Source: Planctomycetales bacterium
GTDB taxonomy: Bacteria > Planctomycetota > Planctomycetia > Isosphaerales > Isosphaeraceae
Length of the DNA stretch: 38,848 nucleotides
Direction of reading: 5' to 3'
NCBI GenBank assembly: GCA_027451885.1
Contig: DAIDHX010000277.1
Span: 1-38,848 of the forward strand
Positions 26,251-32,892 of this stretch are shown here, piece after piece; within the stretch, counting starts at the first letter, position 1; every line of letters begins with the position of its first letter. A model generated the notes under the pieces. It searched no databases. It was not told where the DNA came from and saw nothing but the letters and a program-made list of their open reading frames with translations. The translations under genes and the position numbers were made by a program.

Positions 26251-29211
26251 ATGAGACGTTTTACCGGTACGGGCGCGGCAACCGCGCTCGTGGTCGGACT
26301 GATGGCGATTGAGCTGCCGGCTCAGGAGCCGCACGATCCGCCGATCAATTATGAGTCGGTCATCGTCAACGCTCGCTCGGCGGGCATGAGGCGCGGCGGC
26401 GCCATGGGGAATTATCGCGACTTCAACGAGGTCACGAAGGACACCGAGAAGATCGAGGGGCTCTTCACGTTTTACAAGAAGCCCGATCACCTTTACGCCG
26501 AGATCCGCCCCGATCAGTTCAATCACCCTTTCCTGGCGCCGATGATGATCGCGCGCGGCCTGGCGGGCGCGGGCAACCCCATTGGCGACGAGGAAATGGT
26601 GCTCGTCTTCAAGCGAGTCGGCGAGCGGATTCAGGTCATCCGCCGCAATATCCACTACAAGGCGCCCGCGGGCTCCTCGCTCGACAAGGCGGTCAAGCAG
26701 AATTACACCGACTCAGTGCTCATGGCCCTGCCGATCATCACGATCAACATGATGAAGGGGGGCGCGCCGGTGGTCGATTTCGCTGATATTTTCCTGACCG
26801 ATTTCGCCCAGCTTGGCATCGGCATGCTCGATCGGAGCCGCAGCTCATGGGCGAAGGTCAAGGGCTTCCCCAATAACATGGAGATCGAGGTCGAGGCGAC
26901 GTTCGCCGGCGCGGGCCGCCGCGGCATGGGCGGGCAGGAGATCGTGGCCGACGCACGCGGCGTCACCGTGGTCATCCACTACAGCCTGATGCGCACCCCA
27001 GACCCAGGCTACCACCCCCGCCTGGCTGACGACCGCGTCGGCCACTTCTTGAGCGCCAGCAAGGACTTCGGCTCGAACGACCCCGACACCAACTTCGTCC
27101 GCCAGATCAACCGCTGGCGGCTCGAAAAGGCCAACCCGCAGTCCCGGCTCTCGCCACCCAAGAAACAGATCATCTGGTACGTCGAGGACACGGTTCCCAT
27201 CGAATATCGGCCCTACGTCGAGGACGGCATTCGGGAGTGGAACAAGGCGTTCGAGAAGATCGGATTCCGGGATGCCATCGCCGTGCGCTGGGCCGAGGTC
27301 GGGCGCGACGATTTCGATCCCGAGGACACAAACTACTGCACCTTCCGCTGGATCACCACGGGGCAAAGCTATGCCATGTCGTGCCTGCGGGCGAACCCGC
27401 TCACCGGCGAGATGATCGACGGCGACGTGATCTTCGACGCCAGCATGGTGCAGTACTGGAAGCGCGAATACGCCCTCTTGATCGGCAACACCGCGGCCCC
27501 CGGCGCCCAGCCCACGCCGATCGCGGTTGGCGAGGTCCTCAGCCCGATCCTCGCCGCAAAGCTGGGTTACGGCCAGCCCTGGGCACGCGGGCTCCTGGGC
27601 ATCGAAGGCATCGAGGCCCTGTCCGGCAAGCCCACGCTCGAGGCCGTGCCCTCGGACCAGAACCTGATGAGCTGGTCGCTGGCCCGCCACATGGCGCTTG
27701 GCACCCGCGGCTTCTGCCAGTTCCAGGGGGGGCTGCAGCGCGATTTCGCGCTGGCGGCGATGGCGCTGGCCGACTCGGCCGCCGTGGCGGACAAGAAGGA
27801 TGAAAAGGCCAAGGGCGAAAAGGGCAAGGACGACAAGAAGCCCGAGGCCAAAAAGCCCGAGATCAAAAAGCCTGATCCCGCCGCCGAGCTCACCGAGGAA
27901 TTCATCGGCCAGGCCATCAAGCACATCACGATGCACGAGGTCGGCCACTCGCTCGGCCTCAGGCATAACTTCAAGTCGAGCACGATGCTCACGGCCGACC
28001 AGCTCAACGACACCGCGATCACAAGGTCCAGGGGCCTGGTGGGCAGCGTGATGGATTACAGCCCCGTCAACATCGCGCCCAGGGGCAAGAAGCAAGGGGA
28101 TTATTATTCAACCACCATCGGCCCTTACGACTACTGGGCAATCGAATACGCCTACAAACCGATCATGGGTGACGAGGCGGCGGAGCTCAAGAAGCTCGCC
28201 TCGCGTGCGCCCGAGCACGACCTGGTTTATGCCACCGACGAGGACGCGGCGTTCAACGACGATCCCTACGTCAACCGGTTCGACCTGGGCGCGGACCCTT
28301 GCGAATTTGGCAAGGAGCGGATCGCGCTTGCCTCCGAGCTGCTCAAGACGCTCGACGCCCGGGTTGTGAAGGACGGCGAGTCCTGGAACCGCGCCCGAAG
28401 CGCGTTTGGCATCCTGCTCAACCAGTGGGGCGACGGCGCGGTGCTGGCTTCGCAGTACATCGGCGGCCAGTCGGTGTCGCGCGACCACAAGGCCGACAAG
28501 GGCGCGCGGGACCCCATTGTTCCCGTCGCGGGCGCCAAGCAGCGCGAGTGCCTGAACTTCCTCTCGGAAACCATCCTTTCCGACAAATCGTTCCAGTTCT
28601 CTCCCGCCCTGCTCCGCCGTCTGGGCGCGGAGCGCTGGCTGCACTGGGGCGTGAACTTCAGCGCCTCCCCCGCGGTCGACATCTCCCTGTTCGAACGCGT
28701 GCTGGGCATCCAGAAGATCGTGCTCTCGCACTGCCTGGCGGGCCCGACCCTGGCCCGCTTGCAGAACCAGCAGCTCCAGGCCGACCCCGCGACCAATCCC
28801 TTGCGAATCGACGAGGTCTTCCGCGGGCTCACCGAGGCCAGCTGGTCCGACGTGGCCGCACCCGCAAAGGGCAAGGACGGCAAACGGCCCCCATTCACCC
28901 TTTCCACCATCCGCCGCAACCTGCAGCGTGAATACGTGCGCAGGCTGTCAGTGATGGTGCTGGGCAGCGGCGGACGCGGCCTTGGCGACGCCTATGGCTA
29001 CCTGGTCATCATGCGCGGCGGCGGCAATTCGGTTCCAGCCGATGCGCGGGCCCTCGCCCGGCTGCATCTCAAGGAAATCTCGGGCCGGATCGCCAACCTC
29101 GTCGATACCCCCGGGCTCTCGATCGACGACGTGACCAGGGCGCACCTGGAAGAAATCCGCCACCGGATCAACAAGGTGCTCGAGGCCAACCTGGACGTCC
29201 AGGAGCCTTGA
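26251..29211 (+). CDS. Exported zinc metalloprotease (DUF5117/DUF4953 type)
   Basis: The 986-residue protein starts at an ATG with AGGAG eight bases ahead and has a signal peptide (ALVVGLMAIELPAQ). The catalytic motif is HEVGHSLGLRHN at residues 562-573, the HExxHxxGxxH of metzincin-like zinc proteases. The upstream part (YKKPDHLYAEIRPDQFNHPF and following) fits the DUF5117 region and the part after the motif fits DUF4953, the domain pair of this bacterial family. A Lys/Glu/Pro-rich stretch (residues about 515-544) precedes the active-site helix and looks like an unstructured insert. The protein probably acts in the periplasm. A terminator follows at 29226. Confidence 0.92.
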   Translation: MRRFTGTGAATALVVGLMAIELPAQEPHDPPINYESVIVNARSAGMRRGGAMGNYRDFNEVTKDTEKIEGLFTFYKKPDHLYAEIRPDQFNHPFLAPMMIARGLAGAGNPIGDEEMVLVFKRVGERIQVIRRNIHYKAPAGSSLDKAVKQNYTDSVLMALPIITINMMKGGAPVVDFADIFLTDFAQLGIGMLDRSRSSWAKVKGFPNNMEIEVEATFAGAGRRGMGGQEIVADARGVTVVIHYSLMRTPDPGYHPRLADDRVGHFLSASKDFGSNDPDTNFVRQINRWRLEKANPQSRLSPPKKQIIWYVEDTVPIEYRPYVEDGIREWNKAFEKIGFRDAIAVRWAEVGRDDFDPEDTNYCTFRWITTGQSYAMSCLRANPLTGEMIDGDVIFDASMVQYWKREYALLIGNTAAPGAQPTPIAVGEVLSPILAAKLGYGQPWARGLLGIEGIEALSGKPTLEAVPSDQNLMSWSLARHMALGTRGFCQFQGGLQRDFALAAMALADSAAVADKKDEKAKGEKGKDDKKPEAKKPEIKKPDPAAELTEEFIGQAIKHITMHEVGHSLGLRHNFKSSTMLTADQLNDTAITRSRGLVGSVMDYSPVNIAPRGKKQGDYYSTTIGPYDYWAIEYAYKPIMGDEAAELKKLASRAPEHDLVYATDEDAAFNDDPYVNRFDLGADPCEFGKERIALASELLKTLDARVVKDGESWNRARSAFGILLNQWGDGAVLASQYIGGQSVSRDHKADKGARDPIVPVAGAKQRECLNFLSETILSDKSFQFSPALLRRLGAERWLHWGVNFSASPAVDISLFERVLGIQKIVLSHCLAGPTLARLQNQQLQADPATNPLRIDEVFRGLTEASWSDVAAPAKGKDGKRPPFTLSTIRRNLQREYVRRLSVMVLGSGGRGLGDAYGYLVIMRGGGNSVPADARALARLHLKEISGRIANLVDTPGLSIDDVTRAHLEEIRHRINKVLEANLDVQEP

Positions 29212-29225
29212 TTCGCTCGTCCCAG

Positions 29226-29274
29226 ATCGGCCGGGGCGGCTTGAACCAGGCTCCCCCGGCCGATTTCTTCTTTT
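29226..29274 (+). terminator. Intrinsic terminator after the metalloprotease
   Basis: A perfect 11-bp stem, ATCGGCCGGGG (29226-29236) with CCCCGGCCGAT (29254-29264), and a 17-base loop are followed by the T-rich run TTTCTTCTTTT. This is the best rho-independent terminator in the window. It lies 15 bases after the metalloprotease stop and 29 bases before the next start, so the amine-oxidase genes need their own promoter or read-through. Confidence 0.8.
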
Positions 29275-29302
29275 CCCACCCCCAACCCGCGAGACGCCCT
29301 GA

Positions 29303-30070
29303 ATGAAGGCTTTGCACAAAGCTGGAATTGCAAGCGCGACGAGCGCTCTGCTCGCGGCCGCCGCCGGCATTGGGCTTGCTCAGGATGCCGCGGTGCCGCC
29401 GCCAAGGCCCGGGCTCACCGCGCAGCAAACGACCGACGCCATCAAGTTCGCGCGGGGCACGATGGTGGAGCTCCGCAAGAAAACCGAAGGCGCGGAACGC
29501 CCTGAAGCCGACCGCCGTGAATACGTGGTCGCGGTGGAGCGCATGGCCCCGCCGCCCGAACGCACACAGCCCGCGGCCGGGGCCAACGACGCTCCCAAAA
29601 CCACGGCGCCCCGCTCGAAGGACGCGCCCCGACCCGCTCCCAAACCCAGTCCGCGCGCCGTCGTGACCATGTACCGCTACTTCGACGATATCACCGTCTT
29701 TACCACCGTCGACCTGGCGACCGGCAAGGTCGTGGACGTGCAGGCCGCCCAGCACCTGCGCACCCCGCTCTCCGAGGCCGAGTTCGACGAAGCCCAGGCT
29801 CTCGCACGCGACAGGAGCGCCGAGGTCAAGAAGCTCTACAACCGCTTCGGCGACCAGATCATCGCGTACCCCCAGTTCAGCCAGTACAACCTGGAAAACG
29901 ACCCCCGCGTGCACAGGGTCGTCCACCTGACCTATCGCGTGGGCAAGCGGGAGCTCAGTTATCCCCGGCCTGAAGTGGATCTGACCACCCGCACGGTCCG
30001 GGTGCCCGCGCCGGCGCCCGATCTGGAGCCGGAGCTGAAGCCCAGGGCAAGCCAGGACCCCGCCGATTAA
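29303..30070 (+). CDS. Exported protein resembling the N-terminal domains of copper amine oxidase
   Basis: The 255-residue protein has a signal peptide (ATSALLAAAAGIGLAQ). Its first part contains LTAQQTTDAIKFARGTMVELRK and its second part RAVVTMYRYFDDITVFTTVDLATGKVVDVQAAQHLR, which resembles the N2/N3 cystatin-like domains that precede the catalytic barrel in copper amine oxidases. A Pro/Ala-rich linker joins them. The catalytic domain is encoded 48 bases downstream by a separate gene, so the pair reads as an oxidase split in two. The match is to a fold pattern, not to catalytic residues, so it could also be an independent PepSY-like exported protein. The ATG has only a weak ribosome site. 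Confidence 0.65.
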   Translation: MKALHKAGIASATSALLAAAAGIGLAQDAAVPPPRPGLTAQQTTDAIKFARGTMVELRKKTEGAERPEADRREYVVAVERMAPPPERTQPAAGANDAPKTTAPRSKDAPRPAPKPSPRAVVTMYRYFDDITVFTTVDLATGKVVDVQAAQHLRTPLSEAEFDEAQALARDRSAEVKKLYNRFGDQIIAYPQFSQYNLENDPRVHRVVHLTYRVGKRELSYPRPEVDLTTRTVRVPAPAPDLEPELKPRASQDPAD

Positions 30071-30118
30071 CCCGGTCCGCCCCGCGCTCGAACGCCTTGA
30101 TCCAGGAGAGGATCTCGC

Positions 30119-31450
30119 ATGCCTCGCCGCAGCCTTTTTGCCGCAGTCGCGCTCCTTGCCGCCCTGTCTCCGAGCGCCGTTCACGCCCAGCGCTTCTTCC
30201 GGGCCCCCGTGGTCGACCCCCCGTCGCAGGAGGTCACGGCGGAATTCCTGGAAAATGAATCCGGCGGCGTCGAGCCCCGCCGCGGTACCGCCTGGAAGGT
30301 GCATGTGGCCCGCGGCCTGCACAAGGGACTCTACATCACAGGCGCATGGTTCAAACGCGATCTCAACGAAGGCTGGATCAAGGTCCTGAACGACGCCCGC
30401 ATCGCCGAGCTCTTCGTGCCTTATCATCAATCTTCGTTCATACGCTATTACGACCTCACGAGCTTCTCGTTCCCGCTCGCCCCCGTGCGGGCGGAAGACA
30501 CGGGCGCATTCGGTTCGCTCCTGCCCGCGTTTCAGGGAGATAGCAACGCCACGGTCGTCAAGGAGGTCCGAGATCGCGGCGTCGTCTGGAAGGATTACGC
30601 CCATGGCGTGCGCAGAGGCAAGGAGCTCGTGCTCTGGGGCGCGCTTGAGGCGGGAAATTATATGTACATCATGTCATATTCTTTCCATGACGACGGCACA
30701 ATCGCCTTTCGCGTGGGCGCGACCGGGCAAAACCTGCCCGGCCATCGCCAGGAAGCGCACACCCACAGCGCCCACTGGCGGATCGATATCGACCTTGTCG
30801 ACGGCAAGAAGAACTCGGCGATGCTGATGCGGCATATCGAGAACGTGCGCGGGCTTGGCGCTGAGGACGTGAAGGAGCCGTTCAACCGCGGCTTCGAGGG
30901 GGGCGTGGAATGGAATCCCAGGGAATTCACGATGATCCGGGTTGAGAGCGAGGCCAAAAACCCGCGCGGACAGTTCATCAGCTACGATCTGATGCCGCTG
31001 CGTTACGGCTCGCCGCGGCACAGCGAACCGTTCACTCACAACGACCTGTGGGTAAGCCGATCCCACCCGGAGCGCCCGCTGGAATTCATCTTCGCCAATC
31101 TGCCCAACATCGTGGCCGACCAGGAGATCGTGGAGGCGACCGACGTCGTTCTCTGGTGCAATTCCGCCGTGCATCATGAGCCGCGGAACGAGGACGGCAA
31201 GCCCGGCTCAGCCCCTCGCATGTGGGAATGGGACGACGCCTGGGAGGGCTCCGCCCTGGTGATGTGGAGCGGGTTTGATCTCCGCCCGCGCAATTTCTTC
31301 GATCGCACGCCCTTTTATCCCTACACGCCGGAACGGCCCCGGCCGGTGGCAAGGCAGGGTCAGGGCGAGCCCACGGACCCGCGCCAGCCCGTGCCCGGAA
31401 CCGCGGTCGAGCCGCCGCAAAACCGCCCGGAGCCCGAGCGCCGCAAGTGA
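30119..31450 (+). CDS. Exported copper amine oxidase, catalytic domain only
   Basis: The 443-residue protein starts behind AGGAGAGGA and has a signal peptide cut near HAQRF. The family residues are in order: a candidate catalytic base D112 in YYDLTSF (family pattern YFDTGEY), the cofactor tyrosine Y181 in AGNYMYIM (TPQ pattern N-Y-D/E), copper ligands H214 and H216 in AHTHSAHWRIDIDL, and H353 in HHEPRNED (family pattern THxPRxED). It would oxidise primary amines to aldehyde, hydrogen peroxide and ammonium. Met182 replaces the usual Asp/Glu after the tyrosine. It lacks the N-terminal domains, which the preceding gene may supply. The C-terminal tail is Pro-rich. The substrate amine is unknown. 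Confidence 0.82.
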   Translation: MPRRSLFAAVALLAALSPSAVHAQRFFRAPVVDPPSQEVTAEFLENESGGVEPRRGTAWKVHVARGLHKGLYITGAWFKRDLNEGWIKVLNDARIAELFVPYHQSSFIRYYDLTSFSFPLAPVRAEDTGAFGSLLPAFQGDSNATVVKEVRDRGVVWKDYAHGVRRGKELVLWGALEAGNYMYIMSYSFHDDGTIAFRVGATGQNLPGHRQEAHTHSAHWRIDIDLVDGKKNSAMLMRHIENVRGLGAEDVKEPFNRGFEGGVEWNPREFTMIRVESEAKNPRGQFISYDLMPLRYGSPRHSEPFTHNDLWVSRSHPERPLEFIFANLPNIVADQEIVEATDVVLWCNSAVHHEPRNEDGKPGSAPRMWEWDDAWEGSALVMWSGFDLRPRNFFDRTPFYPYTPERPRPVARQGQGEPTDPRQPVPGTAVEPPQNRPEPERRK

Positions 31451-31575: not shown

Positions 31576-32892
31576 ATGCACCCATTCTCCGCGCCCGTTC
31601 AACCCCTCCTTGCGTTCATGGACGCCCCGGCCAACATCCGACCCGCTGACACGGTGGTCGTCGTCATGGGTGTGAGCCTGGGAATGCTGCTCATTCCCGC
31701 GCTCGGGCTGTTCTACGGCGGCATGGTCAGGCGGAAGAATGTGCTCTCGGTGCTGATGCAGTGCTTCATCGCGCTTGCGGCGGCATCGCTCCAGTGGGTC
31801 ATCGTGGGCTACACGCTCGCCTTCGGAGACGACGTCGGGGGCGGCCTCATGGGCAACTACAAGCACCTGTTTCTCCACGGCGTGGGGCTCGATCCCAACC
31901 CCGTCCTCGCGCCCACGATCCCGCACCGCGTGTTCATGGCCTTCGAGCTCCTCCCCGCCGCGCTCGCACCCGCGATCATCTCAGGCGCGGTCGTGGAACG
32001 CATGAAGTTCTCCGCTTATGTTCTTTTTTGCATTGCCTGGAATACCCTGGTCTATGCCCCGGTTGCGCACTGGGTCTGGGCGCCCGACGGCTGGGTGAAC
32101 AGCCACGGCGGCATGGACTTCGCCGGCGGCTTCGTGGTCCATCTCACCGCGGGGGCGGCGGCGGTGGTTTGCGTGCTGGCCGTGGGCAAGCGCAAGGGGC
32201 TCGACAGCGAGGACCTGCACCCGCACAACCTGACACTGACCGCGATGGGAACGGGTCTCCTGTGGGTTGGCTGGATCGGCTGGATGGTCGGGGCGTCGCG
32301 TGGAGTCGCCGCGCATGCGGCGGTGGCCTCGGTTTCAACCATCCTGGCCGGCGCGGGGGGCATCGCCGGCTTCGCGCTTCTGGAGCTCTTCGAGAAGCGC
32401 AAGGTCACCCTCCTGGGCGCCTGCACCGGGGCGGTCGCGGGCCTGGTGGCGATCACTCCCGCCGCGGCCTGGGTCGAGCCCTGGGCCGCGATCGCGATCG
32501 GGCTTGTCGCCGGCCCGCTCTGTCATGGCGCGATCATGCTGAAGGCGCGATTCGGGCTCGATGATTCGCTCGATGTGGCCAGTGTGCACGGCGTCGGCGG
32601 ACTTTTCGGCGCCCTTGCGCTTGGCGTCTTTGCCTCGGCGGAGCTCACGGGCACCCCGGGCGGGCTGCTGGTGGGCAACGCCGACATTCTCTTCGCCCAG
32701 GCGATCGCCGCGCTCGCGGTCATCGTTTACACAACGCTCGTCACCTGGGTCATCCTGCTCGCGATCAATCGGACGCTCGGCCTCCGAGTTGGAAGCGATG
32801 AGGAAGACCTGGGCCTCGACCTGGCGCAGCACGGCCAGCGCGGGTACATCATGGGCGAGGGTGAACTGGTTGGCCTTGCCCCGCGTGACTGA
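31576..32892 (+). CDS. amt: Ammonium transporter (Amt family)
   Basis: The 438-residue protein has eleven apparent transmembrane helices and lies behind GGAG six bases before the ATG at 31576; an ATG at 31618 would shorten the N-terminus. Amt features are LGLFYGGMVRRKNVLSV, YAPVAHWVWAPDGW, GMDFAGGFVVHLTAGAAA (Asp and first pore His), and SVHGVGGLFGALALGVFA (second pore His). Amt channels take up ammonium through a twin-His pore. No glnK gene is adjacent, although GlnK regulation is usual. It follows the amine oxidase gene by 125 bases on the same strand, which suggests recovery of the released ammonium. Confidence 0.96.
   Translation: MHPFSAPVQPLLAFMDAPANIRPADTVVVVMGVSLGMLLIPALGLFYGGMVRRKNVLSVLMQCFIALAAASLQWVIVGYTLAFGDDVGGGLMGNYKHLFLHGVGLDPNPVLAPTIPHRVFMAFELLPAALAPAIISGAVVERMKFSAYVLFCIAWNTLVYAPVAHWVWAPDGWVNSHGGMDFAGGFVVHLTAGAAAVVCVLAVGKRKGLDSEDLHPHNLTLTAMGTGLLWVGWIGWMVGASRGVAAHAAVASVSTILAGAGGIAGFALLELFEKRKVTLLGACTGAVAGLVAITPAAAWVEPWAAIAIGLVAGPLCHGAIMLKARFGLDDSLDVASVHGVGGLFGALALGVFASAELTGTPGGLLVGNADILFAQAIAALAVIVYTTLVTWVILLAINRTLGLRVGSDEEDLGLDLAQHGQRGYIMGEGELVGLAPRD

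Follow-up and report, generated by a model that had tools for sequence, protein, structure and literature searches.

Separately encoded homologs of the N2-N3 region and the catalytic domain of copper amine oxidases in Isosphaeraceae

In classical copper amine oxidases (CAOs), the N2/N3 domains and the catalytic barrel are joined in a single chain. The structurally characterized CAOs are homodimers of ~70- to 80-kDa chains and are obligate dimers, as described in a 2012 crystallography review (PMC3382800). Searches of a library of open-access papers found no description of a split CAO. The DNA analyzed here, a stretch of 38,848 nucleotides from a planctomycete of the family Isosphaeraceae (the window), carries two consecutive genes, named p1 and p2, whose products resemble the two portions of such an enzyme.

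The gene pair and the identity of p1

The first gene, p1 (positions 29303 to 30070, + strand), encodes 255 amino acids identified from the open reading frame (ORF), a structural model, and profile comparisons as a homolog of the N2-N3 (D2-D3) region. The second, p2 (30119 to 31450, + strand), encodes a compact CAO catalytic domain of 443 amino acids, assigned by PF01179 and HHalign. Both ORFs are present at the positions given in the initial annotation of this DNA, with the claimed 48 bases between the p1 stop and the p2 start, and in the window they share one frame. A Shine-Dalgarno-like run, AGGAGAGG (30104 to 30111, + strand), lies 7 bases 5' of the p2 ATG. The same annotation had given each protein its own signal peptide, and hydropathy and inspection by eye likewise found a basic, hydrophobic, and Ala-rich leader on both, with probable signal peptides at residues 1 to 26 of p1 (29303 to 29380, + strand; Ala-rich end) and residues 1 to 23 of p2 (30119 to 30187, + strand; Ala-x-Ala end). 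A 478-amino-acid antisense open frame (29168 to 30604, − strand) covers p1 and the start of p2; it was taken as a by-product of high GC content and not as a gene.

No Pfam domain was found in p1 above the cut-off. Matches to NlpE_C and other Pfam families were below the cut-off and inconsistent between members, and a match to the Tako8 propeller was discarded as an artifact in which seven repeats of ~5 bits each had been summed. Because p1 and p2 are in frame in the window, they could be modeled as a single read-through chain, and the first AlphaFold model was built in this way from an alignment of split homologs only. In this model, from which classical CAOs were absent, p2 was poor and p1 was largely confident, forming two successive alpha-beta4 units. 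The N2-like unit (residues 37 to 150; 29411 to 29752, + strand), delimited by the secondary structure of the model, has a helix at residues 40 to 60 and strands at 73 to 81, 118 to 125, 130 to 137, and 142 to 150. The N3-like unit (residues 155 to 233; 29765 to 30001, + strand), delimited by the model and by an in-register profile match that stops at a VDL motif, has helices at 158 to 185 and strands at 186 to 197, 200 to 213, 224 to 226, and 231 to 233. The best 50 PDB matches listed for the model by Foldseek and VIA were all CAOs, and model residue 37/38 falls on the start of D2 (residue 14/15 in AGAO, 98 in ECAO, 27 in HPAO, 12 in PSAO, and 62 in VAP-1). Comparison of the model with CAO structures gave Z scores of 9 to 11, at an rmsd of 18 to 20 because the halves were not docked.

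Profile comparison of the p1 alignment with 21 classical N2-N3 regions gave a match of 65% (P of 6e-5); its score of 38.4 exceeded the maxima of 27.9 from 60 column shuffles and 32.3 from 60 block shuffles. When four p1-like relatives from a second family (see below) were added to the alignment, the HHalign match to the 21 classical regions rose to 92% (P of 6.4e-7) and spanned nearly the whole of N2-N3. A classical N2-N3 hidden Markov model scored 28.6 bits with the p1-like protein of locus L080 in the second family, 21.4 bits with that of L016, and 10.4 bits with p1 of the window. As fold, profiles, and single sequences agree, p1 is a homolog of the CAO N2-N3 region; the N2/N3 nature originally claimed for it thus survived the fold test.

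For a second joined-chain model, 21 one-chain planctomycete CAOs were added to the alignment. This model reached a pLDDT of 72.6 and a pTM of 0.73 and could be superimposed on AGAO over 492 residues with a Z score of 32.3 and an rmsd of 4.6; with the one-chain CAOs left out of the alignment, the halves were not docked and the pTM was 0.27. The modeling is therefore compatible with p1 and p2 fitting a complete CAO architecture, but as the one-chain sequences guide the model, the predicted docking rests on homology and is no independent proof of binding.

Catalytic domain and active site of p2

The Cu_amine_oxid family (PF01179) matches p2 above its curated cut-off, with an E value of 1.6e-21, and HHalign against 21 classical CAOs gave 99.4% (P of 1.5e-21). 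The five catalytic residues that had been proposed on first inspection all held up, aligning with the catalytic base, the tyrosine precursor of topaquinone (TPQ), and the copper ligands of CAOs: D112 (30452 to 30454), Y181 in the N180-Y181 pair (30656 to 30661), H214 and H216 in an H-x-H arrangement (30758 to 30766), and H353 as the third copper ligand (31175 to 31177), all on the + strand. These five, together with W59, Y102, N180, and E358, are invariant in 52 sequences, comprising 11 split proteins, 20 p2-like proteins of the second family, and 21 classical CAOs. From the alignment, Y102 (30422 to 30424, + strand), which lies in a V-P-Y motif, appears to correspond to Tyr305 of HPAO-1, a strictly conserved residue.

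The initial annotation was silent on a deviation of the TPQ motif at two positions from the T-x-x-N-Y-[DE] consensus of characterized enzymes (PMC3382800). In all 11 split proteins, residue 177 is E or Q in place of T and residue 182 is M or V in place of D or E, and the p2-like proteins of the second family have still other residues at both positions. The Thr is also missing from four of the 21 classical CAOs aligned. TPQ forms an order of magnitude more slowly in HPAO-1 when the Glu of this motif (Glu406) is replaced by Gln (PMC3382800), so amine oxidase activity of p2 is plausible, and its TPQ biogenesis may differ.

Conservation, neighbors, and wider distribution

Of 45 Isosphaeraceae genomes, 11 carry p2, and these 11 and no others carry p1; they include Aquisphaera insulae and an Isosphaeraceae metagenome-assembled genome from Centralia. 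Neither gene was found alone. The chance of such co-occurrence is 1 in C(45,11), or ~1e-10, if the genomes are treated as independent, a figure that overstates the case as the genomes are related. In all 11, the two genes are adjacent and in the same order. Their stops differ, the gap ranges from ~20 to 207 bases, and the reading frame is shared in six pairs and shifted in five. Both genes are under purifying selection, with dN/dS values of 0.08 to 0.31 for p1 and 0.06 to 0.21 for p2. In two of the genomes (L013 and L014), the automatically assigned p2 start was too late, and an upstream ATG in the spacer gives a longer leader. Eleven pairs of separate genes with varied stops, gaps, and frames, maintained by purifying selection, rule out a sequencing frameshift, a read-through product, and chance.

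Directly upstream of p1 in the window is a gene for a met-zincin protease (DUF4953/DUF5117/DUF5118; 26251 to 29211, + strand), which is directly 5' of the pair in nine of the 11 genomes. As met-zincin genes are present in 44 of the 45 family genomes, it is the adjacency that is specific and not the presence of the gene. This gene possibly shares an operon with the pair and may be linked to the oxidase. Downstream of p2 is a gene for an AmtB-type ammonium transporter (31576 to 32892, + strand), a neighbor of the pair only in the genus of the source organism; that it takes up ammonia released by the oxidase is a weak link. PADLOC returned no defense match. Classical one-chain CAOs occur alongside the pair in four genomes (G001, G002, G008, and G014), where the split form is thus additional and not a replacement. 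The source genome also carries a decayed, frameshifted remnant of a one-chain CAO beside a Ser/Thr kinase gene (L003, 1380 to 1700; contig C93 of G000, near 2385 to 2564).

A class-level search identified p2-like genes, mostly 34 to 49% identical to p2, in a second planctomycete family (f101, perhaps the Gemmataceae), often in several copies per genome. A sample of 392 genomes across the phylum had yielded no p1 beyond the source genome and only one-chain CAOs elsewhere; the split genes that other families carry escaped it and came to light in the class-level search. With the enlarged p1 profile, six p1-like genes were identified in 23 f101 genomes, every one of them with a p2-like gene immediately downstream. 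All 17 p1 homologs found (11 in Isosphaeraceae and six in f101) therefore sit directly upstream of a p2-type gene. Conversely, 24 of the 30 f101 p2-like loci read were without a p1-like gene, although three of the 24 had no upstream sequence. Whether the catalytic gene usually occurs without p1, the point on which the original proposal could have failed, hence depends on lineage: it does not in Isosphaeraceae, where every p2 is paired, but it does in f101.

Some p1-less paralogs have another partner. An N-terminal YbjN domain (PF10722; cut-off of 22 bits) is fused to the catalytic domain, at the place expected for N2-N3, in L089 (3413 to 5326; 32.4 bits) and L088 (4278 to 6119, − strand; 27.2 bits), with signals below the cut-off in L082 and L086. 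At five further p1-less loci (L072, L073, L076, L077, and L078), a conserved membrane protein of ~270 amino acids with no Pfam match is encoded directly upstream of the p2-like gene (for example, L077, 5426 to 6247, − strand) and is a possible alternative partner.

A catalytic-domain tree placed every p2-type protein in one group apart from the classical CAOs, with the p1-bearing loci scattered within that group. Judged from these sequences, p1 and p2 probably arose by a single early fission within a divergent lineage of planctomycete CAOs, and several paralogs later lost p1 or had it replaced; several gains of p1 are the less simple reading. Given the p1-like genes of f101 and its mostly p1-less paralogs, the split is old, the catalytic domain can exist without p1, and some relatives can do without the partner or replace it. 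No p1 match was found in plasmids, and a pattern scan of IMG/VR returned no relatives. A 3' remnant of a p2-like gene, 38% identical to p2, was found near an IS110 transposase on plasmid pMpar-2 of Methylocystis parvus (L067, 5992 to 6390), suggesting that the p2 lineage also reached Alphaproteobacteria.

Explanations of the pair and comparison with known oxidases

The explanation we favor, with reasonable but far from complete confidence, is that p1 and p2 are the halves of one CAO made as separate chains. The two proteins would be exported separately, p1 would dock on p2 at the site that N2-N3 occupies in one-chain CAOs, and p2 would dimerize. Copper on H214, H216, and H353 would drive the oxidation of Y181 to TPQ, D112 would serve as the catalytic base, and the complex would oxidize primary amines outside the cytoplasm, yielding aldehyde, ammonia, and H2O2. 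Of the two-component oxidase first proposed, the separate N2-N3 homolog and catalytic domain stand; the TPQ motif is unusual, and the functional meaning of the pair is supported in part. That the two ORFs share a frame in the window could point to a single gene interrupted by a sequencing error, a recent frameshift, or read-through, but the comparison refutes this almost completely, since the split recurs in 11 genomes, five times out of frame, and each p2 has its own leader. It is unlikely, too, that p2 works as a compact amine oxidase by itself, with p1 a leftover or accessory exported protein outside the active enzyme. The p1-less majority of f101 loci, the retention of every active-site residue in the 20 f101 p2-like proteins examined, and a rate of evolution of p1 at least that of p2 would fit such a role; against it, p1 is kept beside p2 under purifying selection throughout the 11 Isosphaeraceae genomes, no p1 gene (0 of 17) stands apart from a p2-type gene, and several p1-less paralogs have a different N-terminal domain or gene partner.

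The altered TPQ motif bears on two other explanations. We regard it as distinctly unlikely that p2 is a CAO-fold protein without TPQ or amine oxidation, with some other copper-dependent or binding role. The substitutions at 177 and 182 in all split proteins, and the other residues there in f101, would allow for this, but 31 p2-type sequences, although widely diverged, all retain the same copper ligands, base, TPQ tyrosine, N180, and Y102, which is not expected of a dead enzyme. Very unlikely is a p1 that acts as a maturation factor, holding p2 during copper insertion and TPQ formation and then leaving. Both the Thr and the Asp/Glu beside the TPQ tyrosine are gone from the p2 lineage, and outside help could be useful given the slow TPQ formation of the HPAO-1 Glu406-to-Gln variant (PMC3382800); in the solved CAOs, however, the N2-N3 region homologous to p1 belongs permanently to the chain. 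The two-chain oxidase may also be an obligate one, with p1 required in trans for the cofactor to form or for substrate gating in a catalytic chain whose usual motif around the TPQ tyrosine is lost, and with this job passed to the YbjN domain or the membrane protein in relatives, a proposal that we offer tentatively and rather doubt. Overall, the pair is a two-gene form of a known enzyme family that was kept in Isosphaeraceae; in relatives, the partner was apparently lost or exchanged. With such a natural split, two proteins could be mixed to test what N2-N3 and the catalytic domain each contribute to folding, the loading of copper, TPQ formation, and the access of substrate, and the p2 lineage offers TPQ-type active sites without the consensus Thr and Asp/Glu.

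Like AGAO of Arthrobacter globiformis and ECAO (TynA) of Escherichia coli, p2 has the catalytic fold, the Asn-TPQ tyrosine pair, the catalytic Asp, the three copper His residues, and the V-P-Y Tyr, with N2-N3 present as the separate p1. It differs from these enzymes in that there are two chains, both predicted to be exported, that p2 is shortened in several loops, and that T-x-x-N-Y-[DE] has become E/Q-x-x-N-Y-M/V. The one-chain CAOs of Isosphaeraceae (e.g., L042 to L051 and L058 to L062) belong to the same superfamily as p2, but each is a single ORF with a near-canonical TPQ motif, and they form a separate clade with full support; a very long branch parts p2 from all classical planctomycete CAOs. 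The f101 paralogs share the active site of p2 and have a p1-like gene upstream at six loci, whereas they are often multicopy, mostly without p1, and in some cases fused to YbjN or located behind the membrane protein gene. As N2-N3 and the catalytic domain are not combined in one ~70- to 80-kDa chain but encoded by two ORFs in all 11 Isosphaeraceae genomes, the pair represents a split member of the CAO superfamily and not a typical CAO.
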